NCBI RefSeq assembly: GCF_900184685.1
Contig: NZ_FXXL01000005.1
Span: 124,001 to 188,000 of the forward strand
DNA: 64,000 nt
Origin: Butyricimonas sp. Marseille-P3923
Lineage (GTDB): Bacteria > Bacteroidota > Bacteroidia > Bacteroidales > Marinifilaceae
Direction: 5' to 3'
In this document: piece by piece, positions 4,501-31,841 of the stretch
How positions within the stretch are numbered: position 1 is the first letter of the stretch
Layout of the letters: the number at the start of each line of letters is the position of its first letter
The notes under the pieces: generated by a model
Seen by the model: the letters and a program-made list of their open reading frames with translations, nothing else
Told to the model about the DNA's origin: nothing
Database searches by the model: none
Program-made: the position numbers and the translations under genes

Positions 4501-5088
4501 ATTGAGTCTGTGGGAATACCCTTGAAGGATTGGAACATCCAAATCAACTATGGGATAAAAACTGGTTTCAATGATGCTTTTATCATTTCTACCGAAAAGC
4601 GTGATGAGATACTAGCGAATTGTCAAACAGAAGATGAACGTGTTCGGACGGCTGAACTTATACGACCGATTCTTCGTGGCAGGGATATCAAGAGATATGA
4701 ATATGAATGGGCGGACTTGTGGATTATAGCCACATTTCCTTCGCGGCATTATGATATAGAAAGTTATCCTGCGGTGAAAAATTATCTTCTGTCAATTGGC
4801 ATAGAGCGTTTAGAACAAACAGGAGAAACTCATATTGTTAATGGCAAAAAAATAAAAGCCCGAAAGAAAACTAGTAACGAGTGGTTTGAAACACAAGATA
4901 GCATCAGTTATTGGGAGGATTTTTCTAAGCCAAAAATTGTATGGAAAATAATCGGAAACCAAATGGCTTTTGCATATGATGCCAACAATTATGTAATGAA
5001 CAATGCCTGTTATATTATGACAGGCGATCATTTGGATTATCTGTTGGCAGTATTGAATTTTCCAATAACTGAAGTAACCTTCGTGTAA
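1540..5088 (+). CDS. Type IIG-like restriction-modification enzyme (N6-adenine methyltransferase), C-terminus cut off
   Basis: A single-chain restriction-modification protein of the Eco57I/type IIG kind, 1182 residues. The N-terminus carries a PD-(D/E)xK-like nuclease signature ('DIDLAIRL' then 'IGLLIEVKS', about residues 70-100). The middle has SAM-binding motif I ('CDPAVGSGHFL') and the adenine methyltransferase motif IV NPPY ('IIGNPPYIQL'), separated by a charged coiled-coil-like stretch. The C-terminal third resembles the TaqI-type target-recognition domain. The frame ends abruptly after 'LDYLLAVLN', where related enzymes continue, because IS-derived DNA begins near 5062. The last residues 'FPITEVTFV' read into the IS fragment. 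Target recognition is therefore probably impaired, while the nuclease and methylase cores look intact. It is a solitary gene with its own promoter. Confidence 0.85.
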   Translation: MGLLKPNQVLNKAYRQVAIETTDFDLFKNALRTLRDNIVDGQREHTQKEHLRNFLSETFYKPYYMAPEEDIDLAIRLDKTIKSNIGLLIEVKSTTNKGEMISNDNLNRKALQELLLYYLKERVNKKNNDIKYLIATNIHEFFIFDAHEFERKFYQNKQLRREFQDFVDGRKTSNKTDFFYTEIATTYIEEVKDSLEYTYFNLQDYQHLLDRTDSSASRKLIELYKIFSDTHLLKLSFQNDSNSLNRGFYTELLHIIGIEERKENNKTVIVRKAVERRDEASLLENTINQLDAEDCLRHINGRLYGNDYEERLFNVAMELCITWMNRILFLKLLEAQMLKYHNGDAIYKFLSITKIHDYDDLNTLFFQVLARDMGSRTHSIMRDFAYVPYLNSSLFEVTDLESKTIKINSLSQRTVLPVLASSVLRNKKRNLQVNALPTLQYLFAFLDAYNFASEGSEEVQEEAKTLINASVLGLIFEKINGHKDGSVFTPGFITMFMCREAITKTVLQKFNGYYGWNCTTRIELYNHIDNIVEANELINSLRLCDPAVGSGHFLVSALNELILLKYELGILVDATGKRIRKADYQLAIENDELIVTDTEGNLFAYNPLNAESRRMQETLFKEKRQIIENCLFGVDINPNSVKICRLRLWIELLKNAYYTAESNYTYLETLPNIDINIKCGNSLLHRFALTDSIQTVLRESSISISQYKEAVAKYKNAQSKSEKQDLETFITEIKSKLKTEINRRDARLVRLNKRRSELANLQAPQLFEPTKKEKKASDKRIADLKKEIATLENIFEEIRSNKIYLGAFEWRIEFPEVLDAEGNFLGFDCIIGNPPYIQLQSMGKSADVLECMGYITYARTGDIYCLFYELGMNLLTPNGFLCYITSNKWMRAGYGEALRGYFASKTNPIMLVDFAGIKIFDAITVEANILLSQKAANIFNTQACLVQDSNGLNNLSDFVQQQGVKCNFADSIPWMILSPIEQSIKQKIESVGIPLKDWNIQINYGIKTGFNDAFIISTEKRDEILANCQTEDERVRTAELIRPILRGRDIKRYEYEWADLWIIATFPSRHYDIESYPAVKNYLLSIGIERLEQTGETHIVNGKKIKARKKTSNEWFETQDSISYWEDFSKPKIVWKIIGNQMAFAYDANNYVMNNACYIMTGDHLDYLLAVLNFPITEVTFV

Positions 5089-5746
5089 TCATACGAGTCT
5101 GTGATTTCCTGCGTTTACGCAGTTTGCTATAAGCAAGATAGGCACGGCGTACATCAAGATACTTGTTACGGGGACGTTGTATGTGCAAGGTCTGGCAATG
5201 TTTGCACAGATGACGATGAAGCCATACAATACCTTCCCATAAGAGTTTGGTATCAGTAGGAAAACGCAGATGACTTTCATAACAGGTGGCATCGGTCATA
5301 CAGACATGAAGGTTCTCAAGATAAGGTTTCCAATGCTCGGCAAGAATGAGCTGGAGGGGCTCAACGTCAAGGCGATGCGCTAGTTCCTGACGAATTGCAC
5401 TAACGATTTTAGGATTGGTTAGTGGATGAAGCGGATCAATCTGAACACCACAAAACAACTGGTAATGAATATTACCGTTTAAATGCTCAATCAGTTGTGC
5501 ATCGGAAAAGTTGGTATAGGACTTCAAGACCATCAAGGCTATTTTACCTTCGGGAGAAAAATAACTTTTACGACCCAAAGCAGAGGACTTCAAATGCATT
5601 TGTCGGGTCAGTTCCGAGAAAGGAAACAGAGCATGGAGGCGACCTAATTCACTCGTTGCAAAACTTTGACGATATTTTTTTAGCATATCGAACTCGGTAA
5701 AACCTAAACGAGGTTCGATTTCTGAGATTTTTTGTATCTTTACCAT
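5015..5746 (-). pseudogene. IS transposase, N-terminal part (InsH/DUF772-like, IS5/IS1182 type)
   Basis: A 243-residue reading frame starting at the ATG at 5746. It has the N-terminal 'InsH' type transposase domain ('SPEGKIALMVLKSYTNFSDA', 'HYQLFCGVQIDPLHP') and the first acidic region ('VCMTDATCYESHLRFPT'). The authentic transposase sequence stops near 5062, at 'RLLQLLEN'. The remaining residues are antisense to the methyltransferase gene, so the downstream DDE residues are missing. The transposase is thus truncated exactly where the methyltransferase is truncated. This points to an IS insertion followed by a deletion that removed the IS 3' end and the gene 3' end together. The family (IS5 versus IS1182 group) is my judgement from the motif pattern. 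Confidence 0.75.
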
Positions 5747-5819
5747 GTGTTTTTATTTTAGATTACCCCCGTTTTGGCCGTCAAACCGTTTTTTGGGGGG
5801 AATGCTTAAAGATACAAAA

Positions 5820-5852
5820 AAGGCAACTAACTCGCAATGAATTAGTTGCCTT
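5820..5852. terminator. Bidirectional intrinsic terminator
   Basis: A perfect 11-bp stem (5820-5830 with 5842-5852) with an 11-base loop. An A-run precedes it and a T-rich tract follows on the plus strand, so it can act in both directions. It sits in IS-derived DNA between the two transposase fragments. Confidence 0.7.
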
Positions 5853-5936
5853 AAATTTTATTATTTTAGGAATATCCCTGTTTTAATGATTGGTGTCTGG
5901 AACTGGTTGAGGAGTTATACTATAGACATTTACTGA

Positions 5937-6155
5937 ATGTCCCTGTATAGTGTCGATAATATTAAAGAAAAACTTGTTATCTCCCTATATGCCAAAGGAA
6001 TGAGCGTGTCAGACATAGAAGAGGAGATGCGTGAAATCTATGAGATAGAACTGTCCACATCAGCTATTTCCATCATCACGAACAAAGTCAACCAGGCTGC
6101 TCAGGAATGGCAGAACCGCCCTTTGGATCCGGTCTATCTCATCGTTTGGATGATT
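5937..6155 (+). pseudogene. IS256 (mutator) family transposase fragment
   Basis: The plus-strand frame encodes 'ISLYAKGMSVSDIEEEMREI' followed by 'LSTSAISIITNKVNQAAQEW' and 'RPLDPVYLIVWM', the characteristic N-terminal third of IS256-family transposases just before the first catalytic Asp. The frame then runs into sequence antisense to the 3' end of the adjacent peptidase gene, so the catalytic DDE core is absent. The 5' end is also missing: residues upstream of 'SVDNIKEKLV' do not look like the family. It is an IS relic marking a rearrangement junction near 6153. Confidence 0.8.
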
Positions 6156-8348
6156 CTACCTATTTTGACTTTTCAGCCTATTAATTGTTTTGGTAACTTC
6201 GTTCATTAGCTTTTGATTGGAAGTTCTAAATGTGTTAAGTTCTTTGATTATATCTGCTTTATTATAGTATAAATTATACCAGCCTAATGTTTCAGCAGCC
6301 AATATGCGAAGTTCTTCTTCTTGGCTTTCATTTTTTATAATGTTCAGTAATGGCTCAATAGCTTTAGCAATAGGTTTATTTCGGAACCTACTTATTTCGC
6401 TTTGTATCTGTTTGGTAGTACTTTCCGGACTGTCAATAAGTGCAAAATCTCTTTCAAGTCCTTTCTTTTGGCGAGGAAGGTATTCTAACAATTCATTCAC
6501 ATAGGAAGAATCGTAGAAAGACCAATCGGCAGCCTGTTTCTTCAATTCATTCAAAGCCATATCATGGTCGAACGTGTTGATAGCACTAAAAATTCTGAAA
6601 CGATGGCGGTTTTCATGTCCGCGTAATAAATAGCTTTCTATCCATGCCGGCAACAATTCCGGATTGCAATTCTTTTCAACGTATTCCACCGCATAACGAC
6701 GGATCAGTTCATAACTGTCGTTCATGGCTGTCTGCAATACATCGGCAACCTCTGTCGGATAGTTCAAAGCTAATAGGCGTAATGCTTCCAACCGCACAAC
6801 GAAATAGTTCGATTCGTGGTAACTTTTCTTCAGCAACTCAACGAGACCACTATAATTTGCCATTGACAATTGACGGAGCGCCATTGCCTGCATGTCAGCC
6901 ATAGGGGAATTCAGCTGTTTTTTCCAGAATGTAACATTTCCTTCCTGCGCAACTAAAGCTTGGTTGATGTCCATATCCAGCCCGGCATTATTGGTGAAGT
7001 GAAAAGTCGGGTCACCGATCAGATGATTTTCCAAGAAGCAGGTAAAACGAGTGAACTGCCCGATGCGCATACCGGCAGCTAACAAGCCGAGAAATTCATC
7101 CGGCCATTTATCTTGAATGGTGTTAACCGTACATCCCATAGTAGCAATGGTCTTACCCTTATTGAATATATAAGAGCCTACAATGTTGTCATCCAAATGG
7201 AAAGAACCGTTGAAACAAGCATCGAACAATATAAAACGCGCATTAGGAGTCAAAAGACGAATATCTTCAGTATAGATATCCATATTACGGTTTACAATGG
7301 AATCCGATTTTATTTTCTCCTCATCGAAAGCTTCCGCACACCAACTTTCAGGCACCCCATACTGCTTGGCATATTCTTTGATAGCAGCTTCACGCCCATG
7401 TTTCTTGGCGTATGAAGGCACTTTGCTTCGCAAGAATATTTTGGCATTCTCAATACTCAAATTAATACCGGAACCATTTTCATAGCCATTGATATACTGC
7501 ATGGTGGGGCCACCGTGGTGATGGAATAGCATGACATCTAATCCTTCGCGCTGAATCTCGTTCAAGTATAATGGTTTCATCGGATAGCGCATGTTAAAAT
7601 CATAGAACTTCACTGTATTACCCGATTTGAATATTTGCGGCAATTGCTCACGTAAGGCTATTTGCTCACCGCTCCATGCCAAAGGATCTTCAGAATTGTA
7701 ACCATGGCCACGGGCCATAGTCAGTTGGTCAAATGCATTTTGCTTTGCTTTTTCGGCAACTGCCTTTTTTAAGTAATCGCGTAGCATCTGATAACGGTTC
7801 TCACCTTCTAAATGTAATGGACGGATACGGGCCGAATAAATATCCGGTGAAATATACTGTTTAGAATCAGCACGCAATGTCATATAATGATAGTCAGGTA
7901 TCAAACTGTCTTGTTTAATATAATCAAATTTTAATCCGAAGTCATCATAATAACGGTCGGAAGGAACGCTTGATTTCTGCCAATTGGCTTTGGGAGACCT
8001 TTTGAAAGCCGAAGATAGATGATGTGCATCACGAATCATTGGAATAGGGATGTCACCTATAAATACGCAACCCTCCAAAGGCGTTTTCTCATTCTCATGC
8101 AATTTGACAAGTTGCTCACGAATAGGTTCGGGCCTTTTCCAATCATCAATTAGCAAGTAAGTACCTAAACCTTCTTTTTCTATACTGGTACGATAAGCAT
8201 CAATTTCACTTTTCGCTTCATCATAACTTTTCTGATCGACTACAATTGCAAAAGTAGTCTTTGTTTTTATACTAGGATGTACAACTGTTTGCGCCTGCAT
8301 ATCCTGTAAGCACAAAGCGGTAATTGCCAAAAGGATGTATTTATTCAT
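6156..8348 (-). CDS. Exported clan-CD cysteine peptidase (C25/gingipain-like) with HEAT-like tail, paralogue 3
   Basis: A 730-residue protein with a type I signal peptide (cleavage near 'MQAQ'). Residues about 30-450 resemble the catalytic fold of gingipain-type (C25, clan CD) peptidases. The His-Gly motif is at His278 ('LFHHHGGP') and the nucleophile motif Asp-Ala-Cys at Cys378 ('FILFDACFNG'), followed by the 'LIGDPTFHF' segment typical of C25 domain ends. Residues about 470-725 form alpha-helical repeats ('ALRQLSMANY', 'RLEALRLLAL', 'LIRRYAVEYV') resembling HEAT repeats, so a protein-binding tail is likely. It is the last gene of a six-gene minus-strand operon, 2 bases after its paralogue. 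It probably acts in the periplasm or, if secreted further, at the surface. Its substrate is unknown. Confidence 0.8.
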   Translation of the reverse strand: MNKYILLAITALCLQDMQAQTVVHPSIKTKTTFAIVVDQKSYDEAKSEIDAYRTSIEKEGLGTYLLIDDWKRPEPIREQLVKLHENEKTPLEGCVFIGDIPIPMIRDAHHLSSAFKRSPKANWQKSSVPSDRYYDDFGLKFDYIKQDSLIPDYHYMTLRADSKQYISPDIYSARIRPLHLEGENRYQMLRDYLKKAVAEKAKQNAFDQLTMARGHGYNSEDPLAWSGEQIALREQLPQIFKSGNTVKFYDFNMRYPMKPLYLNEIQREGLDVMLFHHHGGPTMQYINGYENGSGINLSIENAKIFLRSKVPSYAKKHGREAAIKEYAKQYGVPESWCAEAFDEEKIKSDSIVNRNMDIYTEDIRLLTPNARFILFDACFNGSFHLDDNIVGSYIFNKGKTIATMGCTVNTIQDKWPDEFLGLLAAGMRIGQFTRFTCFLENHLIGDPTFHFTNNAGLDMDINQALVAQEGNVTFWKKQLNSPMADMQAMALRQLSMANYSGLVELLKKSYHESNYFVVRLEALRLLALNYPTEVADVLQTAMNDSYELIRRYAVEYVEKNCNPELLPAWIESYLLRGHENRHRFRIFSAINTFDHDMALNELKKQAADWSFYDSSYVNELLEYLPRQKKGLERDFALIDSPESTTKQIQSEISRFRNKPIAKAIEPLLNIIKNESQEEELRILAAETLGWYNLYYNKADIIKELNTFRTSNQKLMNEVTKTINRLKSQNR

Positions 8349-8350
8349 AT

Positions 8351-10552
8351 TTATAAACTTAATCTTTTGATTGTCTGTTCAAGCTCTGCTTTTAAATCTT
8401 CCGGAAGATTGGCTGTTTGTTGCATCTTCTTTATTTCTTCAAGAATGTGTGGCCGTTGTACAGAATTAGTAAACCAACCTAATGCTTCGGCCATTACTAC
8501 ACGTACTTCCTGTGGATTACCGGCATCACGAATTACATTCAAATAATCATCCACGTGGAAATGGAATGTATAGTTACGCACATTGCGGATTGCACTGATA
8601 CGTTTTGCTTCCGGTGCAGCTACATCCATCAAGGTCTGATGGACTTTTGCCTCTTGTACAAACATTCTTTCCAGGCTTCTTAGTAATCGTTTTTTCTCTT
8701 CGTTTTCATTCAAACGGTCAACTTTTGCATAAAAGTCTTCTATTGTCTTTTCTACTTTCTCTTTCGGATAAAGGCTTAAAGCCTTGTTGGCACTCATTTG
8801 TACGCGTAAGCGTTCATTATGTTCGACCAATGCTTCCACAATAGCGGGCAATAAGGAATCGTCACCTACAAATCCAGCATAAATGGCACTTTGGCGAGCT
8901 ACCATTTCATAAGTATCGTTCAAACCTTCGCGTAATGCTTCGATGAAGTTGTCGTCCTGATAACGGCTCAACAACTTGATAGCTTCCATACGAACCGTAT
9001 TGAAGCCACTTTCCCGGTACTTCTTCAGGAGCAACGGAGATAATTCCTTTTGGGTATCGGCGTCAGCCAGCATACGCATGGCCAAACTTTGTACATCAGC
9101 GTATGGGCTGTTTAACAAATTCTTCCAATAGGCTTTGTCATCTTTGTGTATTGTTATATCGGTACTTAAAGTATTGGCTTCGATAGGAGCAAAACGGAAA
9201 GTGGGATCACCAAACAAATGACCTTCAAGTGATACGATTAGCTTATTGTATTGCCCGGCTCGTACACCATGGGACAACAAACCAATCATTTCAATAGTCC
9301 AGCGGTCTTGCAATACGTTACGGGTATTTCCTTGTGCTACTAATGTCTGACCGTCATTAAAGATATATTGTCCTGCTATATAGTCGTTTTCGTGAAAAGA
9401 ACCGTTGTAGCACGCATCAAACATTATCATCTTCGGATTAGTGGAAAGATTTCTCTTCATTAAATCTTCCGTTACGATACGTTCATCAGCGTAGTGAAGA
9501 GAGTCTGCTTCCCAGAACTTAGGATTGTCCAGGTCTTTAAAAAACACCTCATTCACTTGTCGTTTTTCCTGCATCTGAATACGTAAGGTGTCTTTGTCAC
9601 GTTTTCCAACATGGGACATGACTGCATTATAAAGTGTACTCTTCAACATTTTATAACGATTATTGAAATCAGTGCATGCCAATTCATCATTAATAAGCTG
9701 CCCTGTTGGCATTCCATGTTCATGAAACATAAATAAGTCAAGGTCCTTTCGTTGCAATTCGCTGAATAACTTATATTTCATAGGGTGTTTCATTCGGAAG
9801 TTCCAATGTTTGAATCCCATTTGACGACCAAAAGCTAATGGAAAGTTCTCCATATAAGCTTTTTCGTCATCCATCCATACAATCAGGCAATCGGAATTGT
9901 AAGAAGCACCATTGAATGAGAATACCCGATCTAATTGATTATGCTTATCTGCCTTGGCAGCAGCAGCTTTCTTCAGATATGAGGCAATGGCCGCATATTT
10001 ATCCCCTTCCTTTTTTTCCGGATACTTGATACGAGCTGAATAGAAAGTAGGATTTAGCCGCTGGGGACTGTCTTCTGTCAATTTGTAGTAGAAATGCTGA
10101 TGATTTACTGAGTCTTGCCTGATGAACTCAAACTTTAAGTTCAGATCATCATAAAAGCGGTCGGTAGGTACGGAAGACTGATCCCAAGGAAAGGCTTTCT
10201 CATTCATTTTGAATGCAGTAGTCATGTGTTGCGCATTACGTACCAATGCGACAGGCACATCGCCGATTAAAACCAGACCTTCCAATGAAGGGCATTCTTG
10301 ATATGTTTTGATGATTATCTGTTTGACTTGATCTGGATTTTGCCAGTCACCGCTGATCAGATAAGTTGCCAAACCATCATCTTCAACCGCAGTTTTGTAC
10401 TGATGCATGGCATCTTTGGTATTTGCATAAGTTTGGTTATCTGTTATGATAGCAAAAGCGGTAGGTTGTTTGACCAATGGCTTTATGACTGTTGTTTGTG
10501 CATTTCCTGCCAATGGCAAAAGAAATGCCAGATATATTATTTTTTTAATCAT
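8351..10552 (-). CDS. Exported clan-CD cysteine peptidase (C25/gingipain-like) with HEAT-like tail, paralogue 2
   Basis: The middle of three tandem paralogues. The signal peptide is 'IIYLAFLLPLAGNA'. I choose the ATG at 10552 rather than the in-frame TTG at 10558, because it places Lys-Lys directly before the hydrophobic core. The putative catalytic dyad is His279 ('FMFHEHGMP') and Cys381 ('IMFDACYNG'), and the C25-like closing motif is 'HLFGDPTFRF'. The tail of about 250 residues has HEAT-like helices ('LAMRMLADAD', 'RMEAIKLLSR', 'VVMAEALGWF'). It starts 6 bases after the stop of paralogue 1. Both dyad positions are conserved in all three copies, which argues for selection on catalysis, unlike the decayed proteases further right in this window. 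Confidence 0.8.
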   Translation of the reverse strand: MIKKIIYLAFLLPLAGNAQTTVIKPLVKQPTAFAIITDNQTYANTKDAMHQYKTAVEDDGLATYLISGDWQNPDQVKQIIIKTYQECPSLEGLVLIGDVPVALVRNAQHMTTAFKMNEKAFPWDQSSVPTDRFYDDLNLKFEFIRQDSVNHQHFYYKLTEDSPQRLNPTFYSARIKYPEKKEGDKYAAIASYLKKAAAAKADKHNQLDRVFSFNGASYNSDCLIVWMDDEKAYMENFPLAFGRQMGFKHWNFRMKHPMKYKLFSELQRKDLDLFMFHEHGMPTGQLINDELACTDFNNRYKMLKSTLYNAVMSHVGKRDKDTLRIQMQEKRQVNEVFFKDLDNPKFWEADSLHYADERIVTEDLMKRNLSTNPKMIMFDACYNGSFHENDYIAGQYIFNDGQTLVAQGNTRNVLQDRWTIEMIGLLSHGVRAGQYNKLIVSLEGHLFGDPTFRFAPIEANTLSTDITIHKDDKAYWKNLLNSPYADVQSLAMRMLADADTQKELSPLLLKKYRESGFNTVRMEAIKLLSRYQDDNFIEALREGLNDTYEMVARQSAIYAGFVGDDSLLPAIVEALVEHNERLRVQMSANKALSLYPKEKVEKTIEDFYAKVDRLNENEEKKRLLRSLERMFVQEAKVHQTLMDVAAPEAKRISAIRNVRNYTFHFHVDDYLNVIRDAGNPQEVRVVMAEALGWFTNSVQRPHILEEIKKMQQTANLPEDLKAELEQTIKRLSL

Positions 10553-10558
10553 GGCCAA

Positions 10559-12733
10559 TTAATTTTTAAGTCTGTAATATGTACGGTCGGCTTCTTCACG
10601 AAGGTTCTCGGATAAGCTCTTATCTTTTCTCAGTTGATCGCATACCCGAAGGATGTCAGGCTTCCGATAAGAATGAGTGAACCAAGCAAAAGCCTCCAAT
10701 AAACAGGTTTTTAGCTTTTCACTTTCACTGGAGTCGGTAAGTAAAGCCAAGAGGCCGTCTACACAGGCATGTGCCATATGATTTTTCAGAGAATTGCAAT
10801 AAAGGATGCGCCAACGTTCGGAAGTTTCTTTGCTTAATAACTCTTTTTGCATGCTACGACTATTATTGGCATTCTCCAAAACCTTACGCATCTCCTCCTT
10901 GTCTTGCAACACATAGGTCTCAGCCATTACTTTATCAATTGCCGCCTGTACGGCTGCCTGATCAAAGACTTGAAGCCCCAAACTCACATTAAATGCCACA
11001 CGCTCGGATAGGTTGTCTTCTACATAGGCTTTGATTTGCGGATAAACATACTCGTTCAGTCCCACATGTTGCATCATACGAACAGAGGTGCGACGAATAA
11101 ATTCATAGGAATCCGTAATGGCCAAGTGTAAGACTTCCCGGAAGTTTTTGTCACTAATCTTCTCAAGCAATGCCAAGCAGGTGAAACGTACCATCATGAA
11201 CGAGGAAGTTTCAAAAGTTTTTCTTAATAAATCAGAAATACCCGGATAGTCATTGCGATAAAGGTTGTGCAAAGCAAAATTCTGTATGTCGGCATAGGGC
11301 GACTGTAATAACTCCAACATGCGGGACTCGCTATATGGTTCTTTGAACAAAGCATTGGCATCTACCTCATTGATAGATTGAAAACGTAGAGTAGGGTCAC
11401 CGGTAATGTGCGATTCGAGAATATTCGTCAATTTAGCCCATTGCCCCACTCGTGCTCCCATACCTAACAGGCCGAGCATCTCGTTTGCCATTTTATCTTG
11501 CAGTACATTGACTGAATTGGCAAAAGTAGTTACGCATTTTCCTTCCGACATGATATAACGTCCGGCAATGTAATCTTTTTCCCGGAAATCACCATTATAG
11601 CATGCATCGAAAATTACCATACGGCTATTAGGCTTAAACTCTGTAACTTCCGACAGGATAATACCGGTGCGCAGGTCTAGTAAAGAATCTTCTGCAATTA
11701 CTTTGGGATCATCATAGCCTGCAATCCAAGTAGTGTCCAAACCGTATGTGTTTTTCATCATATCCAGCATTTCGTCGAAAGACTTTTTGTTGTTTTGCTT
11801 TCTACGCGCTAAACCACGATAATAGTACTTCATTGCATCTACATGAGCATTCCACCTATTAGTAGCGGGACTACCGGAAAGATATTGACGTTCGGGCATA
11901 CCATGCTCATGAAAAATAGACAAGTCCAGATCTGTGCGTTTCAGCATATTAATGACATCGTCCTTGGGATAATCGCTGAAATTATAACGGATGAAACGGG
12001 CCCGTCCCTCTTTATCGAATACGCCCGGCATTTGTTCGCGAATAGTAAAGGTTTCCGGTGTCCATGCAGTCAATGAGTTAGAGTAAGAGCCATCACCTGT
12101 ATAGGAGAAGAATTGGTCTAATTTATTGTTTATCTGGTGCTCAGCCACCACTTTTTTAAAATAGCGGCTGATTTGCGCATGCGGTTCTTCGCCGTTATCA
12201 ACAGCTTTGACACGTGCAGAATATATGTCACACCGAATTTGCTGTGGAGATTTTATAGCCAAATTATAATAGAAGAAATTATTTTCGACACTGTCCTGTT
12301 TCAAAAAATCGAATTGTAGGTCGAAATCATCGTAGAAACGGTCGCTGGGCACTGAAGAATCTCTCCAGTCATTGTTTTTCTCATCCATTTTAAAAGCGGA
12401 AGTCATATGCTGGGCTTTGCGGAGCATTGGAATAGGGATATCACCGACAAATACCACTCCTTCCAATTTATCCTTTTTGTAGAGCTTAACAATAACTTTC
12501 TTTACATCTTCCGGTTTATTCCATTCATTGTATACGATGAACGTAGGCAACCCTTCCATTCCTAGAATCTCCTGATAGGCTTTAAGCTCGGCTTCACAAG
12601 CCTGAAATGTCCCTTTATCTGTAATTACAGCAAAAGAGGTGTCCTTTACTTTCACAGCCGGTTTAACAAATGTCTGTGCCCGCAGAGATAATATGCTGCA
12701 GAGCATCAAACTTCCAGTTATTAATTTACGCAT
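10559..12733 (-). CDS. Exported clan-CD cysteine peptidase (C25/gingipain-like) with HEAT-like tail, paralogue 1
   Basis: The first of three tandem paralogues, 724 residues, with signal peptide 'SLMLCSILSLRAQ'. The catalytic-type motifs are His277-Gly ('IFHEHGMPE') and Asp-Ala-Cys378 ('VIFDACYNGDF'), with the C25-like 'HITGDPTLRF' segment near residue 445. The C-terminal part is helical and repeat-like ('ALHNLYRNDYPG', 'RFTCLALLEKI', 'LLEAFAWFTH'). No lipobox and no recognisable type IX sorting domain are visible at the C-terminus, so release to the periplasm is the simplest reading. It lies 30 bases after the beta-barrel gene in the same operon. The triplication suggests different specificities or a hetero-oligomer; that is inference. 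Confidence 0.8.
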   Translation of the reverse strand: MRKLITGSLMLCSILSLRAQTFVKPAVKVKDTSFAVITDKGTFQACEAELKAYQEILGMEGLPTFIVYNEWNKPEDVKKVIVKLYKKDKLEGVVFVGDIPIPMLRKAQHMTSAFKMDEKNNDWRDSSVPSDRFYDDFDLQFDFLKQDSVENNFFYYNLAIKSPQQIRCDIYSARVKAVDNGEEPHAQISRYFKKVVAEHQINNKLDQFFSYTGDGSYSNSLTAWTPETFTIREQMPGVFDKEGRARFIRYNFSDYPKDDVINMLKRTDLDLSIFHEHGMPERQYLSGSPATNRWNAHVDAMKYYYRGLARRKQNNKKSFDEMLDMMKNTYGLDTTWIAGYDDPKVIAEDSLLDLRTGIILSEVTEFKPNSRMVIFDACYNGDFREKDYIAGRYIMSEGKCVTTFANSVNVLQDKMANEMLGLLGMGARVGQWAKLTNILESHITGDPTLRFQSINEVDANALFKEPYSESRMLELLQSPYADIQNFALHNLYRNDYPGISDLLRKTFETSSFMMVRFTCLALLEKISDKNFREVLHLAITDSYEFIRRTSVRMMQHVGLNEYVYPQIKAYVEDNLSERVAFNVSLGLQVFDQAAVQAAIDKVMAETYVLQDKEEMRKVLENANNSRSMQKELLSKETSERWRILYCNSLKNHMAHACVDGLLALLTDSSESEKLKTCLLEAFAWFTHSYRKPDILRVCDQLRKDKSLSENLREEADRTYYRLKN

Positions 12734-12763
12734 GTTTTGTAATATAGATTTCGTTATGTAGCA

Positions 12764-14326
12764 TTAAAAATTACATCCTAAACTTATCGATAAATGAGTA
12801 CGCCCATCATAATCATAGTCAGAGGTATTTACACGATCGAATACAACTTTTGCAAATAAGTTCATACGTCTGTTTTCTCTGACTTGTTGCGAATACGTTA
12901 TCGACCCGCCAATACGATAGTAATCACAGGTATAATAATTAGTCAGCCCTTGTTGTAATTCGGTTACAGTTGGATAGTCTGCATGGCTGCCACCATATAC
13001 ATATTCACCTCCCAGATTATTGTTATACGCAACATGAACATCTATTAAAAGCCTGCGATTCAAACTATTGCCTAAAACAAAATTTTTTTTGCCACCTAAG
13101 CCTAAAGATAAATTTTCTGCATTCTGTACAGAATTAGGCATTAAATATTCATCGTCTTGCTTGGTATAATTCACATTTAATTCTGCTTTCCAACTATATT
13201 CATTCCCGCGGTTTCTGCTTAATGCATAATTAAGAGAAGCGGTTTGTGCCTTGTACGTAGAACGGATGTTATTATATAATTCCACCCAGCCACTTTGTGA
13301 TTCAGAGTTATCGCGTTGAGAAATATACTGAATACCATCGATGTTACGATTTGTATATGTGGTTCTCATATAATTGGTATAGTCCTTTCCTTCCTGAATC
13401 ATCGTTAAAGAAACATGAGCAGTTTTATCTTTTACACCGGCTATTTTTTTAGGAGTCGTATAGCTCTGCTGAACAGTTTCCGCTTTTACATCGTAACTGC
13501 CCTCAAGCAGTAAATTGAAAGAGGGCATACTGAAGTTGTACTGGAGAGCTCCACCGAAACGGTCTCCAATATAATTGCTGGTTACACCGCTGCCTATTCC
13601 TTTTATGGCTGTTCCCAAACCGTATAATATATAATAGTCCTGATCCACATAAGAGTTGACATTACTCATTCTTGAGTCTTCCTTGATAGAACTATACTTG
13701 AAACTTGCACCAAACTTGTGTGAATTATTCAACTTGTAAGTAATCCCCGGCGTCAGTCCCAGCGTATAAAAACGGGTATCCACACGCGGGTCGCGCTGTT
13801 TGGCAGCTAATGTAGCTACATAATTACCTTCCAACCCCAATGCCCAATGATTACCAAGTAAAGGAGTAGCTGCACGAAACTTCAGATCGTAATATTGATT
13901 TCTCCATTTGCTTAAGTGCTGGTCTGCGACATAGTAAGGCATTCCCCTGAATGGATCGGCAATGGAGGCGTTATATCCGGCATCTGTCAGATTTTTTTGT
14001 GCAAAATTAAATGCTCCCCACACATATGCATTTTTCAGATTGATAAAGCCTTCACTGGATACACCTACGATAGCCTCTTTCTGCCCCTCTTGCGGACGGC
14101 AATAGTTTCCGTCCTGTAAGTCATATCCCAATATAACATTCGAATAATTCTGAATATCATCGAATGGCATACCGGCAGCATTCTGTGAATGAGACCATAG
14201 TCGTCTTGTTTTCAATTGTTCCATAGCGGCGGGAGAGAAGCCCTGTGCCGCTCCCACCATACTTACAAGGCAGGCTATCATTACCAGCAGGCAGCTTTTC
14301 ATATAGTTCATATATTGTTTTTTCAT
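12764..14326 (-). CDS. Outer-membrane beta-barrel protein (DUF6850-like)
   Basis: A 520-residue exported protein with signal peptide 'CLLVMIACLVSMVGAAQ'. The rest alternates hydrophobic and polar residues in short strands with aromatic girdle residues, and it ends with a C-terminal Phe ('SISLGCNF'), the usual signature of an outer-membrane barrel. It matches what I recall of the DUF6850 barrel family found beside DUF4876 lipoproteins in Bacteroidetes; the family name is from memory. It sits between a DUF4876-like lipoprotein gene (24 bases) and the peptidase genes (30 bases). It may be a porin or a partner of the TonB-dependent receptor. No enzymatic motif is visible. Confidence 0.7.
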   Translation of the reverse strand: MKKQYMNYMKSCLLVMIACLVSMVGAAQGFSPAAMEQLKTRRLWSHSQNAAGMPFDDIQNYSNVILGYDLQDGNYCRPQEGQKEAIVGVSSEGFINLKNAYVWGAFNFAQKNLTDAGYNASIADPFRGMPYYVADQHLSKWRNQYYDLKFRAATPLLGNHWALGLEGNYVATLAAKQRDPRVDTRFYTLGLTPGITYKLNNSHKFGASFKYSSIKEDSRMSNVNSYVDQDYYILYGLGTAIKGIGSGVTSNYIGDRFGGALQYNFSMPSFNLLLEGSYDVKAETVQQSYTTPKKIAGVKDKTAHVSLTMIQEGKDYTNYMRTTYTNRNIDGIQYISQRDNSESQSGWVELYNNIRSTYKAQTASLNYALSRNRGNEYSWKAELNVNYTKQDDEYLMPNSVQNAENLSLGLGGKKNFVLGNSLNRRLLIDVHVAYNNNLGGEYVYGGSHADYPTVTELQQGLTNYYTCDYYRIGGSITYSQQVRENRRMNLFAKVVFDRVNTSDYDYDGRTHLSISLGCNF

Positions 14327-14349
14327 TGTTCTGTCTTTTTAGTTAATTA

Positions 14350-15621
14350 TTACAATGTGTGATTCCATGAAGGCATTTTTGCTCCATTACGACGCATTAC
14401 AGGAACAACGCCACGTTCAAAGTCATCCGTACTGTTGTTTGTATCCTGATATATATATGTACCTGTTTCTTCGCGAATAATAGGATTACCTTCTTCGTCT
14501 GTGGACAATTTGCGAGCAATACCTAAACCGCAATAAGTAGCTCCTACCCAAGTAATACCTGCATCAAGTACACCGGGGACACGTTTTGCATTCATCTTTG
14601 ACTCATTGTTTACTGCTTCAACAGCATCCAATACATATTTAATAGGTATTTTTGCATAATAAACATTGCTGTTCGGTTTGCTAAGATCTGTTGTCTTCAT
14701 ATTTTCATCGTTGACCGGATCCCAAGCTTCTCCTTCAGGAACACGAAAAATCACATAAGCACCTCCGAATACGGATGTCAAATATTGTGGTATACTTCCC
14801 ATCTCTGCTTTTCCTTGGTAGAAAACATGTTGCATATCATAAGCTGCCTGGTCAGGGAAGTTTGGATTATTCATATTAAACTCAAACTCAGAACTACTGC
14901 CGTCTATAGGACTTTGAGGGTTATAGATGTCCAACTGATGGTTAGCGGCAAATTGAGAAATGATGCAAGATTCACCTGGCGCTAACGGATATTCGGTTCC
15001 ATTTCCTGGAAATTTCCACACACGTTCTCCATATGCATAATTATTACCGTCCGCTTCCGGCCAAATAGGTAATTTAGTGGTAGCTGTACCCGGAGTTAAA
15101 TTTGCGAAATAAATACCGTCCAAATACAAAATGTCAGCAGAGTTATTGTATATCTCATAGAACTGGTCTCGGAAATAGACTCCTCCTTTTTCCGGACGGC
15201 TACCGCAATAATAAATCTCCTTGAATATTAATGGGCTCACTTTAAGCCCTTGTACTTCAATATTCAATGCGCTACCATGCTTAAATAATGCCGCATTTAC
15301 AGAATTGCCATTGATGTAGTATTCATTGTTTTCTGTATCGATCGCTGTACCGGATACTGTTACCGAATAAATTCCGGGGATAATTCCGTCAACTTTCACA
15401 CTATTATCAGTTACTTCTTTTACATAATGTAAATCTTCATCGTAATTGTCGAACTTTACAGTCAGATCTTTCAGTGTGGATATATTTTCAACGGTAATAT
15501 CCAAATATACATCCACTGTGATAGGATTCACTTCTGCTGTGCCAGACATGTCCCTGAACGAATCGCATCCTATCAAAAGGGTACTTGCCAATGTAAACAA
15601 ATATATTAAATATTTTTTCAT
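14350..15621 (-). CDS. DUF4876-like surface lipoprotein
   Basis: A 423-residue lipoprotein: the signal peptide ends in the lipobox 'TLLIGCDS'. An N-terminal Ig-like or carboxypeptidase-regulatory-like beta domain (about residues 30-135) is followed by a larger domain with 'IFKEIYYCGSRPEKGGVYF' and 'DQFYEIYNNS', a pattern I associate with DUF4876 and resembling lamin-tail-like beta folds. It is encoded 13 bases downstream of a TonB-dependent receptor gene, the position usually held by a substrate-capturing lipoprotein. A role in binding the receptor's substrate at the cell surface is inferred from that position. Confidence 0.7.
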   Translation of the reverse strand: MKKYLIYLFTLASTLLIGCDSFRDMSGTAEVNPITVDVYLDITVENISTLKDLTVKFDNYDEDLHYVKEVTDNSVKVDGIIPGIYSVTVSGTAIDTENNEYYINGNSVNAALFKHGSALNIEVQGLKVSPLIFKEIYYCGSRPEKGGVYFRDQFYEIYNNSADILYLDGIYFANLTPGTATTKLPIWPEADGNNYAYGERVWKFPGNGTEYPLAPGESCIISQFAANHQLDIYNPQSPIDGSSSEFEFNMNNPNFPDQAAYDMQHVFYQGKAEMGSIPQYLTSVFGGAYVIFRVPEGEAWDPVNDENMKTTDLSKPNSNVYYAKIPIKYVLDAVEAVNNESKMNAKRVPGVLDAGITWVGATYCGLGIARKLSTDEEGNPIIREETGTYIYQDTNNSTDDFERGVVPVMRRNGAKMPSWNHTL

Positions 15622-15634
15622 AACTTCCTAAACA

Positions 15635-18496
15635 TTATAAAGTGAGTGATAATTCCAGCCCAAAGAAAAATCGGTTATTCAATTGAATATATGAACCCGG
15701 ATTACGTTTGGATTCTCTGCGCGGATAACTTCTGAACATATTGTTGGCAAAGAAAGAAACACGTAGCATATTGCTAATTTCTTTAGTTACATTCAAGTTA
15801 AAACAAAAATAAGGACTGTATGATTCTTTTATAGCATTATTATGACTTACATTATTCAACATATATCCATATCCTGCATCCTTTACTTGCTGGGTAGTGG
15901 TATATTTCCCCTTGGGAAACATATTTACAGACGCATCTTCCAATGCTAAATAGCCCACAGGTATAGAATCGTTTCCAAATGTATTCCAATTAGACTGCTG
16001 CCAAATAGCTTGTGCTGTCATCGTAACAACAAAACCGATACGCGGGATATTGTGAGTGGCACGTAAAGTCGTTACAAATTGTTGTTTGTAACTTGCATTG
16101 CCTTCTTGAGAATAAATGGCCACCGGTTTACGGGCTGAAGCAGCATCTTCGCTATTGTCATAGAAGCTATAACCCTGACGCCAACTCTTAGTACGCATCC
16201 ATGAGCCATTTATTTGGAAGGCCGTACGGATAGCATCAATACGTCCGATATTCAAATCAAATTCTAAACCTTTAGTTTCTATATTTAAATTATTAGTTGG
16301 TTTTGCATAAGTAGACAATACCGGTAGGCTACTACTAAGCTCTATCCCGTTTTCTGTGCGCTGGTATTCATTGTAGATAAATGTATTGAAGGTGTTGAAG
16401 GTTTGGCTCATTACATAACCATCCTTCAGACGCTCCTTATAAGCTATTACATTCAGATTGGTTTTACCCACTCGTAAATTAAAACCGACTTCTGCTTTAT
16501 GATTTTGGGCAATCTTCAAATCTGAGTTATCTACTTGCCGAACTTCTGTGGTAGTCATAAACAAGCGCTGGCTTTCCGGAATATTTTCATTGGTAAGCTC
16601 ATTTATATTGATATATTCAAAATATGCATTTTCTGGATATAAATAGAGAAGAGAAGGCATCTTTGCAGCAATACCGTAACCTCCCTGAAGACTTAATAGA
16701 TTCGGAATCAAATCAATGGATGCATTTACACGTGGCGAGAAAATGCCTCCTACTACTGAGGTATGATCATAACGCACACCAGCCTGAATGTTCAAATCAT
16801 GCGTACCGCTTATGGACCATTTGAAATTATCTTCCACATATGCACCAAATTGGTTAATGAAAGGAATATCCTTATAGTTACGTGGACGGAAAGATGAATT
16901 ATGACCGTATTGACTACGATAAGGAGGAGTACTTGGGTCATAAGTTTTTCCTTTACCAACGTTACCGTCACTCCGGAAATCCGCACCAATCAAGATGCGG
17001 TTGTTTACATGACCGCTCGCCTTGAATAGAGAACTCGTCACTTTAGCAAACAAATTAACTTCACGACTATCGATCTCATAGTGTCCCAAATAGCTGCTTG
17101 GTAGATAAACAGCATAATGATTTATGTCTTCCGGTCCAAAATTAGTAATTTGATTACCATTGGCATCATAGATATGCTGACCTGCAAAGTTACTAAGTAC
17201 CGCACCGTTTGTAGTGGTCATGGAATAAGGAGATGTAGCAGAACTGTATACGGTTTCATAATAACTGTCTTTATCCATATACGTACCTGACAATACATAG
17301 CGTAGTGTTTTTAACCAGCCCTTATTTATATTCCATGTACCATTGGTATTCAAAGTAAAACCTATATCGCGGCCTTCCGAAGCTGTTTTAGTTTGTTCAT
17401 CATCAGGATTACGTTCACGTTGATCCTTACCATAAATAAAATCAAAGCTGGAATTGGTACGTAACTTATTATTAAAGAAAGTATTTGAATAGAGCAACTT
17501 TGTTGTGGCACGCTGATAGTGCTGGTAACTGGATATTGGATTATTCGTATTATAAGCATAATCTGCACTTACATTTAAAGCGCCTTTCTTTTTTCCAAGT
17601 TCAAAACCGGTTCCCATAGACACCTGATAGATATTGGGATTGGCTTTTGCTTTGACACGTAGCGGCTCACGACCAGCTTTTGTATTAATAATTACTGCTC
17701 CTGAGGTCAGATCACCATATTCAACAGAAGGGATACCACGAACGATTTGTATAGACTCTATATTTTCAGTAGAAATACTACGAACATCGGTTCCACCAGC
17801 CGGCGAGGCACCTCCGGCCAATGAAGCGGGTGTTTCCGTACCACTTAATACCGTAGGGCTCATCGCAGATAGATTAGCATTATTTGAGATGGGGGCACCA
17901 TCACGAATTATTGCGGTGCCCATAGCATTCATCGGAGCTTCCGGACCACTGGAACTGGAAACTTGACGGATGTTAATCTGTTGTGCCGAACTCATATCTT
18001 GATTCTGTGAAATTCCACCTGGCATCAATGACATTACATCATATAAACTGGTCGCTTGCATATGGTCCATAGCAGAGCGGGAAATGTGAGAAGATGTGGA
18101 TTTGCCTGAACGGCTGTTGGTTGCAGTTACTGTAACTTCTTTCAACTTAAAATCCTCATTCCTCATTGTAAAATTAAGAACCAAATCCTTATTTACATTT
18201 ATTAAGGTGTCAATGGAGACTTTGCCCAAATATTGAATTTGCATACGAATTTTACCAGTAGGTACGTTTTCCAGTATGTATCTACCATTTTCATCAGAGG
18301 TTGTCCCTAGTGCAATTTCAGGAATAGACACAGCTGCAAATTCTAAAGGCAAACGCTTGTTGTTGTGGTCGTACTCATAAACAGTGCCTGTAAGTTTTAC
18401 TTTGTAATTGTTTTGCGATTTGATAGGGAGGGCAATTCCTATGCAAATAAGTATAAACAAGTATATAATATTACACCCCAAAATACCTTTTTTCAT
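15635..18496 (-). CDS. TonB-dependent receptor, first gene of the clan-CD peptidase operon
   Basis: An outer-membrane active-transport receptor of about 953 residues. After the signal peptide comes a carboxypeptidase-regulatory-like domain ('LTGTVYEYD' to 'NFTMRNEDF'). A plug domain follows ('EVTVTATNS', 'SLYDVMSLMPGG', 'SIQIVRGIPSVEYGDLTSGA'), then a long beta-barrel ending in 'LELSLTL'. The frame is open upstream to 18619, but I start at the ATG at 18496: a strong promoter lies at 18523-18555, and Lys-Lys directly precedes the hydrophobic signal core there. It lacks an adjacent SusD, so it is not a glycan-type SusC. The substrate may be a peptide or a metal chelate; the sequence does not decide this. 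Confidence 0.85.
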   Translation of the reverse strand: MKKGILGCNIIYLFILICIGIALPIKSQNNYKVKLTGTVYEYDHNNKRLPLEFAAVSIPEIALGTTSDENGRYILENVPTGKIRMQIQYLGKVSIDTLINVNKDLVLNFTMRNEDFKLKEVTVTATNSRSGKSTSSHISRSAMDHMQATSLYDVMSLMPGGISQNQDMSSAQQINIRQVSSSSGPEAPMNAMGTAIIRDGAPISNNANLSAMSPTVLSGTETPASLAGGASPAGGTDVRSISTENIESIQIVRGIPSVEYGDLTSGAVIINTKAGREPLRVKAKANPNIYQVSMGTGFELGKKKGALNVSADYAYNTNNPISSYQHYQRATTKLLYSNTFFNNKLRTNSSFDFIYGKDQRERNPDDEQTKTASEGRDIGFTLNTNGTWNINKGWLKTLRYVLSGTYMDKDSYYETVYSSATSPYSMTTTNGAVLSNFAGQHIYDANGNQITNFGPEDINHYAVYLPSSYLGHYEIDSREVNLFAKVTSSLFKASGHVNNRILIGADFRSDGNVGKGKTYDPSTPPYRSQYGHNSSFRPRNYKDIPFINQFGAYVEDNFKWSISGTHDLNIQAGVRYDHTSVVGGIFSPRVNASIDLIPNLLSLQGGYGIAAKMPSLLYLYPENAYFEYININELTNENIPESQRLFMTTTEVRQVDNSDLKIAQNHKAEVGFNLRVGKTNLNVIAYKERLKDGYVMSQTFNTFNTFIYNEYQRTENGIELSSSLPVLSTYAKPTNNLNIETKGLEFDLNIGRIDAIRTAFQINGSWMRTKSWRQGYSFYDNSEDAASARKPVAIYSQEGNASYKQQFVTTLRATHNIPRIGFVVTMTAQAIWQQSNWNTFGNDSIPVGYLALEDASVNMFPKGKYTTTQQVKDAGYGYMLNNVSHNNAIKESYSPYFCFNLNVTKEISNMLRVSFFANNMFRSYPRRESKRNPGSYIQLNNRFFFGLELSLTL

Positions 18497-18522
18497 AAGT
18501 AACATCATATTTATTAATAATG

Positions 18523-18555
18523 CAAAATTATATGTAAATTTTAAATTAAAACAAA
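18523..18555 (-). promoter_or_regulatory. Promoter of the TonB-receptor/peptidase operon
   Basis: On the minus strand, TTTG (18555-18552), 21 bases, then TAATTTTG (18530-18523) matches the Bacteroides sigma-ABfr consensus exactly. The start of transcription would fall near 18516, about 20 bases before the chosen ATG. Confidence 0.75.
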
Positions 18556-19228: not shown

Positions 19229-19426
19229 CTATTTGAATCGGTCACCCCACAGTGACCGGACATTACTCACCCAATTCGGATTCTCATTACAGTAGGCAAC
19301 GAAAATCTGTATCAAGTTCCAAAGCCCGAGAATCATTCCATTAAACCTGGCAGGAATTGTGACAACATGTCTGCTTGAAACAGCTACTATTATGGTATCA
19401 TGCTGTATTGTTATGCTATATACCAT
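19229..19426 (-). CDS. Small hypothetical protein overlapping the TOPRIM chimera
   Basis: A 65-residue frame whose ATG overlaps the end of the upstream TOPRIM chimera by 11 bases, an arrangement that would allow translational coupling. It has a hydrophobic middle ('FNGMILGLWNLIQIFVAY') and a basic end. I do not recognise it. The overlap and the mobile-element context make it plausible as a short element-encoded protein, but it could be a chance frame. Confidence 0.35.
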   Translation of the reverse strand: MVYSITIQHDTIIVAVSSRHVVTIPARFNGMILGLWNLIQIFVAYCNENPNWVSNVRSLWGDRFK

Positions 19427-21296
19427 GTTCTAAGTCAAAACTCTTTTTTTTTAGAATTGAAGGTTTAAGGCTCCATCCGAAAGTCAATATCACTTTCTCA
19501 AAATTCTTTTCTACAGCACCCTTTGTATAAGTTAGGATGTCTTTCTCTAGAAAATTTTTGAAATCAGATGAACTCATGTCTCTAAAAATGTTTATATATT
19601 CTTTTTTAAGAAATTCATTTATGGCATGTGCCGATATCTTTTTTTGCGTGCACTTTTCTATAACATATAAGTTGCTTGGTACCGGTACCATCGTGTCCAG
19701 CCCCATGAAGATATTACAGTCTACCATAAGAGTATAAGCGCCGCTCTCGGCAAGAGGTGCGGAAATGCAGTAATTGGCTTGCTCAAGCAGAGAATCCACC
19801 AGTTCTTTTGTGGAAGAACTGATACTATTGGCCAATTGTTCATATCCTCTTAGATTCAGTTGGGATATGGTCTTTTCGATAGCCGGGATGAATTTCATTC
19901 CTGGACCCAGGTTCAAATCAAATCTTTTGTAATAGACAAGAAGCTCATTCCAATCTTTGTACCGTGAAGGTTTGATGATATTTACATTGTCTATACCATG
20001 TTGTTTAAGATACTCGCCGGAGGAAAATGCATCTTCTTTGAAGGTCTGTGTGTTTCCATCCGGGAAACTTAAATAGATGGTCTTATATGTGTCTCCAGTG
20101 TTGGTCCTTGCAAAAGCTTTACATTCCTCACCTTTGAGATAATATGCTGTGGTGATGTCAAAACCATTACCGCTGGCATCATTGTCATAGCAACAATTCC
20201 ACTTTACCTTATCAGATGGGAATATACGGCTTATATTCTCTATTTGGGATTTGGTGACATATCCCCCCGTGCTTATGAATGCGCATGTGGTTTCTTTAGT
20301 ATAATGGTTTATTTCGTAGAAACTCATTGCGTCAATAGCGGATTCAAAGAGATATATGTCTGTAACCTTGTCAAAAGGAACAAAATTGGCCATCCAACAG
20401 CTTTGTGCCTTGTCACCACCCGTGGCAAAGGCTTTATAATTGGTATTGGTCTCTGCAAAATAGTTCCTCATTTCAAAGTTAAGGATTTCCATCTGGGAGG
20501 GTTTGCGGAATGGAAAGCCGATATGATTGTTTTTTCCTACCTGGTAGATGAACAGTCTATTGGCGAAATCCTCCACAGTCTGTGGAGAGAGCTTCCTTTG
20601 GACGGTCAAATATGGATTATCCTTTTTGATAGGACGAGGATTCCAATAATTCAAATTGGATTCAATATCATTTGGATTCAGTCCCAGCAGAGGATTGTTT
20701 ACCGTTTCGGTATCTTCATTGGTGATCTGTTGAGTAGGCATTGGTACACCATCAATGACGAAGAGAGGCTGGGTTCCTCCTGTGACGGAGTTGACACCTC
20801 TGATTCTGAAAGTCATTCCGCTTGACAATGAACCGTCTGTGGGGATAATCTGTACTCCGCTGATTTTGCCTTGTAGTGCTTGCAACGTCTGCGTAGAACT
20901 ACTGTTTACAATATCTTTTATATTCACAGAAGCAACGGCGGTTGCAATATCACTTTTTCGCTGGCTACCATAGCCTACAACAACCACCTCATCCATCTCT
21001 GTGACTGAAGGGTCTAGAATGATATCAAATCTTCGGTTCTTTCCGATAGTGATAGTTTTGGGCTTATATCCCAGATAACTGATGACCAGTTTTTCAGAAG
21101 GAAGTACTTTTATCGTGAACTTTCCTTCTAAATCGGTGATTACTGCATTGGTGGTACCTTCGATATTTATCGTGGCACCGATAAGAGGTTCACTCTTCTC
21201 ATCCAACACTTGCCCTGAAATAGTTACTTGCTGTGCTAATGCTACAGTGAAATGTAGTATTAGAAACAATGTGCTTAATAGTACTTTTCTCTTCAT
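19416..21296 (-). pseudogene. In-frame chimera: SusC N-terminus fused to a TOPRIM (DUF3991-like) mobile-element protein
   Basis: The first 213 residues are a SusC-type TonB-linked receptor: signal peptide, carboxypeptidase-regulatory-like domain ('ISGQVLDEKSEPLIGATI'), TonB box region ('MDEVVVVGYG') and plug ('FRIRGVNSVTGG'), up to 'GLNPNDIES'. At about 20657 the sequence switches, without a frame break, to a mobile-element TOPRIM protein. There the TOPRIM Glu is in 'IYLFESAIDAMSF' and the acidic pair in 'CCYDNDASGNGF'. The receptor barrel and the N-terminal zinc-finger part of the TOPRIM protein are both missing. I choose the ATG at 21296 (Lys-Arg-Lys then hydrophobic core) over 21380. A recombination product, probably non-functional although uninterrupted for 626 codons. 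Confidence 0.7.
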
Positions 21297-21644
21297 AGTG
21301 CAGATATTAAAGTTTATAATAAGGATTAATACAATTAGATTTAAAATGGTAGTGCAAATAAAGCGAATTATAATATCCATGTTTTGACCTATTGTACTTT
21401 TCTCTTGACCAAATTACAGACTTTTTCTTCAAAGGTAATCGCTTTCTATTAATTTCATTTATCACCGCGTAAAATTATTCGATTGGACTTTTTATAGTGA
21501 GTATTATCATGGGGAGTATTAAAAAAGATTGGATATGAAAAATAGTATGTTAAATCATTCTGTTTTCTCAAATATGCAGTGGGGTGTGAGCGCAAGGAAA
21601 AATATCTGTAGAAATTGATAATAATGTATTTTATTCAAACTTTC

Positions 21645-28621: not shown

Positions 28622-28632
28622 ATTGATGCAGA

Positions 28633-30711: not shown

Positions 30712-30729
30712 TTTTGTCCTCCTTCCTCG

Positions 30730-31803: not shown

Positions 31804-31809
31804 TCGGAT

Positions 31810-31841
31810 AAAAAAGAGTACCCGAATCATTACGGGTACTC
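31810..31841 (-). terminator. Intra-operon intrinsic terminator
   Basis: A perfect 9-bp stem (31816-31824 with 31833-31841) with an 8-base loop, followed on the minus strand by six U residues (31815-31810). It sits between the LRR-like lipoprotein gene and btuG. Partial readthrough would be needed for the downstream transporter. Confidence 0.75.

Follow-up and report, generated by a model that had tools for sequence, protein, structure and literature searches.

The window analysed here, a 64,000-nucleotide stretch of the Butyricimonas sp. Marseille-P3923 genome (contig NZ_FXXL01000005.1, positions 124,001 to 188,000), carries an operon of six genes that joins a TonB-dependent receptor to three putative exported cysteine peptidases. 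We see about an even chance that this operon encodes an iron-regulated, protease-associated TonB import system, in which the peptidases would act in the periplasm on an imported protein or peptide and so free its iron or haem. The gene order runs from the receptor through a DUF4876 lipoprotein and a DUF6850 protein to three tandem peptidases, PepA, PepB and PepC, each C25-like and predicted to end in a HEAT tail. The six open reading frames (ORFs) lie in tandem on the minus strand (18619-6156) with intergenic gaps of 13, 23, 30, 0 and 2 bases, the fourth becoming 6 if PepB starts at ATG 10552, the codon from which its residues are numbered below. These coordinates bear out the same-strand operon with gaps of at most 30 bases that an earlier note, made from the sequence, had described. 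The features are as follows.

18523-18555, minus strand: Bacteroidota-type promoter, TTTG-N21-TAATTTTG, by pattern match
15635-18508 (longest ORF from 18619), minus strand: TonB-dependent receptor with CarboxypepD_reg_2 and Plug domains
14350-15621, minus strand: DUF4876 lipoprotein, by Pfam match and identity to PDB 4q1z
12764-14326, minus strand: DUF6850 protein, probable outer-membrane barrel, by Pfam match, with C-terminal Phe and signal peptide
10559-12733, minus strand: PepA, C25-like cysteine peptidase with HEAT tail; signal peptide, His277, Cys378
8351-10552, minus strand: PepB, C25-like cysteine peptidase with HEAT tail; His279, Cys381, AlphaFold2 model
6156-8348, minus strand: PepC, C25-like cysteine peptidase with HEAT tail; His278, Cys378

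The association of peptidases and receptor recurs across the phylum. A genome scan returned at least 414 peptidase relatives, the best 80 of which gave 79 loci, a set thus biased towards window-like sequences. Receptor, DUF4876 and DUF6850 genes were all present in 70 of these loci; of the other nine, eight lie near contig ends, and one, from Ignavibacteria (L087), is without the partners in its 20.8 kb. The 79 loci hold 71 ordered TonB-DUF4876-DUF6850 cores, 62 of which run directly into a same-strand peptidase gene, and linkage of peptidase and receptor was found in nine named families of Bacteroidota. In an even phylum sample of 395 genomes (the window's included), we found the peptidase in seven and DUF6850 in 32, all seven falling within the 32 (hypergeometric P 1.2e-8; 1.5e-7 without the window's own genome); with at most 2 and 4 candidates scored per genome, both counts are lower bounds. 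The six other peptidase genomes of the sample carry the peptidase inside or beside the core (L156-L160, L162); in L156 it sits on the receptor's far side, past an opposite-strand M16 gene. Five other genomes of the window's genus were searched, and the peptidase was not found in them. The earlier note had tied clan-CD-like peptidases to the receptor and had named a neighbourhood survey as one way to overturn this view; that survey instead found the two travelling together, in the 70 loci, the nine families and all seven peptidase genomes of the sample.

PepA, PepB and PepC measure 724-735 amino acids and, exactly as previously claimed for the three paralogues, keep a His-Gly pair (His at 277 in the gene at 10559, 278 in that at 6156 and 279 in that at 8351), the Cys of an Asp-Ala-Cys segment (378, 378 and 381) and, all alike, a GDPT segment. 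The catalytic His and Cys are retained in 135 of the 141 proteins of the peptidase family. The six that have neither form opposite-strand two-gene sets at three Sphingobacterium loci (L065 12631-16550, L068 13378-17192, L071 17292-21199) and are likely pseudoenzymes near a copy that retains both residues.

In a Pfam scan, none of the three window peptidases reached the family C25. This family was matched in nine of the 57 catalytic domains taken from relatives, at best with 9.7e-7, and the next family in three. A profile of the 57 domains, compared by hhalign with 26 diverse C25 members, gave a probability of 96%, an E of 1.5e-9 (one comparison) and a score of 77, where controls for the same 26-member set reached at most 35 in 100 block shuffles and 17 when reversed; the comparison turned strong only after the switch to this more diverse C25 set. 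In the full-length alignment with C25 the active-site Cys falls into register, as does the GDP motif at the close; the His does not. We take these similarities to point to a distant relationship with C25.

An AlphaFold2 model of PepB (mean predicted local distance difference test 95, predicted template modelling score 0.92) comprises a mixed alpha/beta N-terminal domain and 16 helices at residues 462-732. Strands 273-277 and 375-379 end just ahead of His279 and Cys381, with a helical insert (296-366) between them. Foldseek listed 50 of 1092 matches, all of them helical-repeat proteins by title and matching the HEAT part; support for a caspase-type fold of the peptidase domain therefore comes from the sequence profile and the strand order, not from a structural match. 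The structure prediction that had been suggested for the peptidases thus bears out the expectation in part: in PepB it shows the helical tail and strands that end near His and Cys, and the listed fold matches concern the HEAT part. As for HEAT tails in all three paralogues, HEAT_2 exceeded the Pfam cut-off in two, and the third stayed below it.

The three copies appear to be old. In a tree of 131 peptidases, built by a quick method with Shimodaira-Hasegawa-like approximate likelihood ratio support (SH-aLRT), the first-position genes of three-peptidase operons grouped together in 22 of 23 cases and the second-position genes likewise (22/23). Third-position genes fell, again 22 of 23, into one group of 38, where 15 genes from single-peptidase loci joined them; the odd one out was L073 at each position. 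PepC is accordingly the type closest to the peptidases of many single-peptidase operons and probably represents the basic type, with PepA and PepB as old duplicates kept in place. Such long retention suggests that the three peptidases are not redundant.

With respect to export, 135 of 138 peptidase relatives begin with a signal-like segment, 127 of them type I-like and eight lipoprotein-like, and three have no clear signal; these classes were called by a crude pattern, and about three of the eight lipoprotein-like calls are doubtful by eye. Pfam and NCBIfam scans (E ≤ 0.1) found no type IX sorting domain in the three window peptidases. Because of the type I-like signals and the lack of such a domain, the peptidases are likely to act in the periplasm.

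The remaining three genes fit an outer-membrane uptake locus. Pfam matches in the receptor comprise Plug (9.1e-12) and CarbopepD_reg_2 (2e-13), and TonB-siderophore receptor families matched weakly, below cut-off. The lipoprotein matches DUF4876 (4.9e-56), the sole family in its Pfam scan, in which SusD/RagB was not matched; its lipobox Cys19 is invariant in 58 of 58 relatives, among which LTD was matched in 27 and CarboxypepD_reg in 24 at E ≤ 1. It is identical over 399 residues to PDB 4q1z, an entry titled BT_1938 of B. thetaiotaomicron VPI-5482, so that the window operon looks like the BT_1934-1939 operon of that strain and the receptor is presumably the BT_1939 counterpart. The DUF6850 protein (Pfam 1.9e-115) has a signal peptide and a C-terminal Phe, features of a probable outer-membrane barrel. 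The pattern that marks the promoter occurs, at spacings of 17-22, eight times on both strands of the whole window, which makes the match at 18555-18523 weak evidence when taken alone: the promoter that the earlier note had placed ahead of the operon is present, but the pattern says little by itself. Given its position, the receptor probably starts at ATG 18508 or 18496 rather than at the longest-ORF start, 18619.

The identity with BT_1938 connects the operon to published expression data. In the available part of a low-iron transcriptome study (PMC10434189), BT1933-39 rose 3.5-7.4-fold, with products listed as an IS256 family transposase, hypothetical proteins, a HEAT repeat domain-containing protein, DUF4876 and a TonB-dependent receptor; the IS256-type transposase fragment behind the last window peptidase agrees with this gene list. 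P. gingivalis PG1019-22 (DUF4876, TonB receptor, hypothetical proteins) rose 20.8-214.5-fold in low iron, and one TonB-receptor operon (Fig. 1C of that study: PG1019-21, BT_1938-9, PIN17_RS07775-90) was induced in all three species (PMC10434189). A further B. thetaiotaomicron locus, BT3625-33, was up 38-128-fold (PMC10434189). In a P. gingivalis hemin-availability experiment, the reported values for the DUF4876 gene and hmuY change with the same sign (log fold changes -5.42 and -6.11; PMC10470040). We found expression tables only and no functional study of these genes in the open-access literature, and a paper elsewhere is possible.

The receptor-DUF4876-DUF6850 core is spread more widely than the peptidases: 25 of the 32 genomes with DUF6850 yielded none of them (lower-bound searches). 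We read 43 receptor-DUF4876 cores by script from 43 fetched regions (one region gave two cores, one none); some cores hold more than one downstream type, and Pfam checks were made on examples. The downstream same-strand cluster contained a CCP_MauG-type di-haem cytochrome c peroxidase in ten cores, a C25-like peptidase in five (L157-L160, L162) and an M16 peptidase without a C25-like one in three (L142, L161, L163), so that a peptidase of either kind followed eight. On the same core, then, an M16 peptidase or a di-haem peroxidase replaces the C25-like peptidase. M16 genes adjoin related cores in L057, L069, L142, L156, L160, L161 and L163, and stand beside C25-like genes in L057, L069, L156 and L160. 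Among the 79 peptidase loci a peroxidase occurs in two (L072, L080), each time on a second, opposite-strand core.

Other downstream partners were an ABC (ATP-binding cassette) ATPase like that of L137 in four cores, L137 counted, and a YCF48-like propeller in eight. The propeller follows the core in the distant phylum members L158-L165, of which L158, scanned with Pfam, also has a type IX sorting tail. Six cores have, among their downstream genes, a member of an unnamed lipoprotein-like family (L152 7715-8758, L168 3377-4480, L167, L169, L171, L175), for which L152, scanned as an example, gave no Pfam match. The window's own genome carries two further DUF6850 cores. One has an ABC ATPase and DUF4857 and resembles BT3625-33 in make-up; in the other (L138) the core is followed at 10265-12211 by a 649-amino-acid membrane 4Fe-4S protein, suggestive of a redox variant. 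A role in copper uptake, as for methanobactin MbnH/MbnP, was considered because a peroxidase is present on related cores, and was set aside as the published response is to iron.

From the anatomy of the operon, the gene swaps and the published iron regulation, we infer a route that covers the type of cargo, the periplasmic location, cleavage, iron release, the barrel and a role for the HEAT tails. The lipoprotein and the receptor would capture an iron- or haem-bearing protein or peptide, and the receptor, energised through TonB and with the DUF6850 protein as its putative outer-membrane partner, would pull this cargo through the outer membrane. Once in the periplasm, the cargo would be broken down by PepA-C, for which the HEAT tails may provide a means of docking, and the freed iron or haem would pass to inner-membrane importers. 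The processing of an imported peptide or peptide-derived ligand, as the earlier note had offered, fits best, although cargo and cleavage are both inferred. More tentatively, and at somewhat less than even confidence, we suggest that gut and oral Bacteroidota import whole iron or haem proteins by a TonB receptor and digest them in the periplasm with up to three caspase-clan peptidases, as an independent counterpart of ferredoxin piracy, the shared core using either proteolysis or a di-haem peroxidase to release the metal.

Several observations weigh against periplasmic release of iron from an imported protein or peptide. The periplasmic placement is read from signal peptides alone. No peptidase turned up when a profile of the catalytic domain was run against PDB, even at E ≤ 10, and the 50 Foldseek matches listed of 1092 did not confirm a caspase-type fold. 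Against PorU-type C25 alone, hhalign gave 5-13% probability and a score of 33, with up to 30 in 60 shuffles, and a global-mode profile comparison with the same type gave no match. A single-sequence phmmer search of the receptor against PDB, a weak test, matched no solved TonB receptor at E ≤ 0.001. Downstream of the core, 15 of the 43 cases have none of the six gene types looked for, and the mutual absence of peroxidase (ten cores) and peptidase (eight) from any one operon is, taken alone, not significant (P 0.096). None of the 15 best of 37 window matches to the classical Fur box (at least 13 of 19) lies upstream of the operon. BT1933-39 also responds to low iron much less strongly (3.5-7.4-fold) than BT3625-33 does (38-128-fold) (PMC10434189), and for the E. 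coli relatives of the proteobacterial Fus system a section heading in PMC6793856 reads 'PqqL and YddB do not support growth during iron limitation in LB media'.

The main rival, which we regard as possible but rather unlikely, holds that the receptor imports a peptidic metallophore, a lipopeptide or a haem-peptide, which the peptidases trim or open in the periplasm. The linkage and iron data would be the same; the ABC ATPase, PepSY and DUF4857 genes on other cores look like metal-ligand handling, and small ligands are the more usual cargo of TonB receptors. A set of three ancient peptidases of ~730 amino acids, each conserved in its own right, and the M16 peptidases beside some cores nevertheless seem much for one small ligand. 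The C25 relationship would also suit gingipain-like peptidases that act outside the cell or on its surface and strip haem or iron from host proteins, leaving the freed cofactor to the receptor. Bacteroidota lipoproteins can be surface-exposed, and eight of 138 relatives look lipoprotein-like by the crude pattern, about three of them probably falsely by eye; yet 127 of the 138 have type I-like signals and the three window peptidases gave no match to a type IX sorting domain, which makes an extracellular or surface role quite unlikely in our view.

Tight linkage and a fixed gene order would also be expected if the peptidases had no part in cargo handling and instead matured or quality-controlled the receptor, lipoprotein or barrel encoded alongside them, or cleaved a regulator. 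This we consider improbable, given that 25 of the 32 DUF6850 genomes yielded no such peptidase (lower-bound searches) and that many cores carry a peroxidase or another gene instead. Competition with, or defence against, other microbes, which the earlier note had kept in view, now has next to no weight with us. The block on which the operon lies was transferred recently and does carry an Eco57I-type restriction-modification gene, and PADLOC matched the HEAT tails weakly (best 8.2e-6; six proteins scanned). Beyond these weak matches, however, Pfam, NCBIfam and PADLOC found no toxin, immunity or defence family in the six proteins, the window peptidases show no type IX sorting domain, the core is widespread as an uptake locus, and expression follows iron in the available data (PMC10434189).

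The surroundings of the operon bear the marks of recent movement. The operon is 99.94-99.98% identical, over the aligned parts, in Phocaeicola faecicola (window 18348-5852) and B. xylanisolvens XB1A (18033-5879), and matches at 100% continue in both to window position 39186. In XB1A, 100% matches also run from 5155 to the left end; its record has two runs of N, opposite window 5156-5878 and about 18034-18082, and in P. faecicola the identity to 5852-39186 is spread over more than one contig. Given this near-complete identity, a block of at least 33 kb (39 kb in XB1A) has passed from one species to another in the recent past; it stops within an integrase-type gene (39160-40233).

The shared block (window 1-39186) also holds an Eco57I-type restriction gene, a cobalamin-type uptake locus and the integrase-type gene. 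The uptake locus (25183-35745; ABC ATPase, permease, binding protein, TonB receptor and beta-propeller-like lipoprotein) moved along with the protease operon; by eye it looks like a vitamin B12 (Btu) uptake cluster, its ATPase and DUF2284 having been scanned with Pfam. In a single ORF at 19416-21380, an N-terminal TonB-receptor segment with CarboxypepD_reg and Plug is linked to DUF3991/Toprim, a recombination fusion whose DUF3991/Toprim part probably comes from a mobile element. The insertion-sequence relics reported earlier as flanking the operon were recovered as a DUF772 transposase at 5015-5746, which overlaps the 3' end of the Eco57I-type gene, and a Mutator-family (IS256-type) transposase fragment on the plus strand at 5937-6158 (PF00872, 5.1e-13).

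Protease-linked import of protein for iron across the outer membrane has been described, in the available sources, for Proteobacteria with M16 proteases. If our preferred reading of periplasmic iron release is true, dominant gut bacteria would possess a cysteine-peptidase version of it, and commensals may take iron from whole proteins. DUF4876, DUF6850 and the unnamed C25-like HEAT family would gain a shared and testable role, for which B. thetaiotaomicron VPI-5482, with apparently the same operon and one solved part structure, permits a direct test.

How does the operon compare with known systems? One close counterpart is the iron-regulated 'outer membrane transport system locus' BT_1933-1939 / PG1019-1022, with a lipoprotein (BT_1938) identical to that of the window, a fitting gene list and increased expression in low iron; in its available part, PMC10434189 names these genes without recognising the peptidases or proposing a role for the system. 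A TonB receptor with CarboxypepD_reg_2 paired with a lipoprotein recalls SusC/SusD uptake, but the lipoprotein here is DUF4876 and not SusD/RagB. With family C25 (gingipains, PorU) the peptidases share His-Gly, a Cys-x-Asn-Gly-x-Phe segment and the closing GDP motif, and they differ in the ~100 residues from His to Cys, which include the predicted helical insert 296-366, in the HEAT tail and in that no type IX tail was found in them.

In proposed function, the operon resembles Fus (FusA-FusC in Pectobacterium, YddB-PqqL in E. coli), where a TonB receptor likewise adjoins an exported protease and expression is linked to iron (PMC6793856, available part). There, too, protease and cytochrome c peroxidase appear as alternatives at the same kind of locus, FusA homologues in Proteobacteria being accompanied by FusC (M16), other proteases or cytochrome c peroxidases (PMC6793856). 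This precedent, together with the iron link, the solved lipoprotein structure and the exchange of peptidase for cytochrome c peroxidase or M16, had escaped the earlier note. In contrast to Fus, the window operon belongs to the phylum Bacteroidota and combines three C25-like, HEAT-tailed cysteine peptidases with DUF4876 and DUF6850. The structure of FusA has been reported (PMC5095587), and single-sequence phmmer against PDB, in which that structure is presumed to be included, detected no relationship between FusA and the receptor; a Pfam scan of the six window proteins gave no M16 protease (FusC). Since the parts seem unrelated, we take Fus and the Bacteroidota core to represent convergence on the same task rather than membership of one system.

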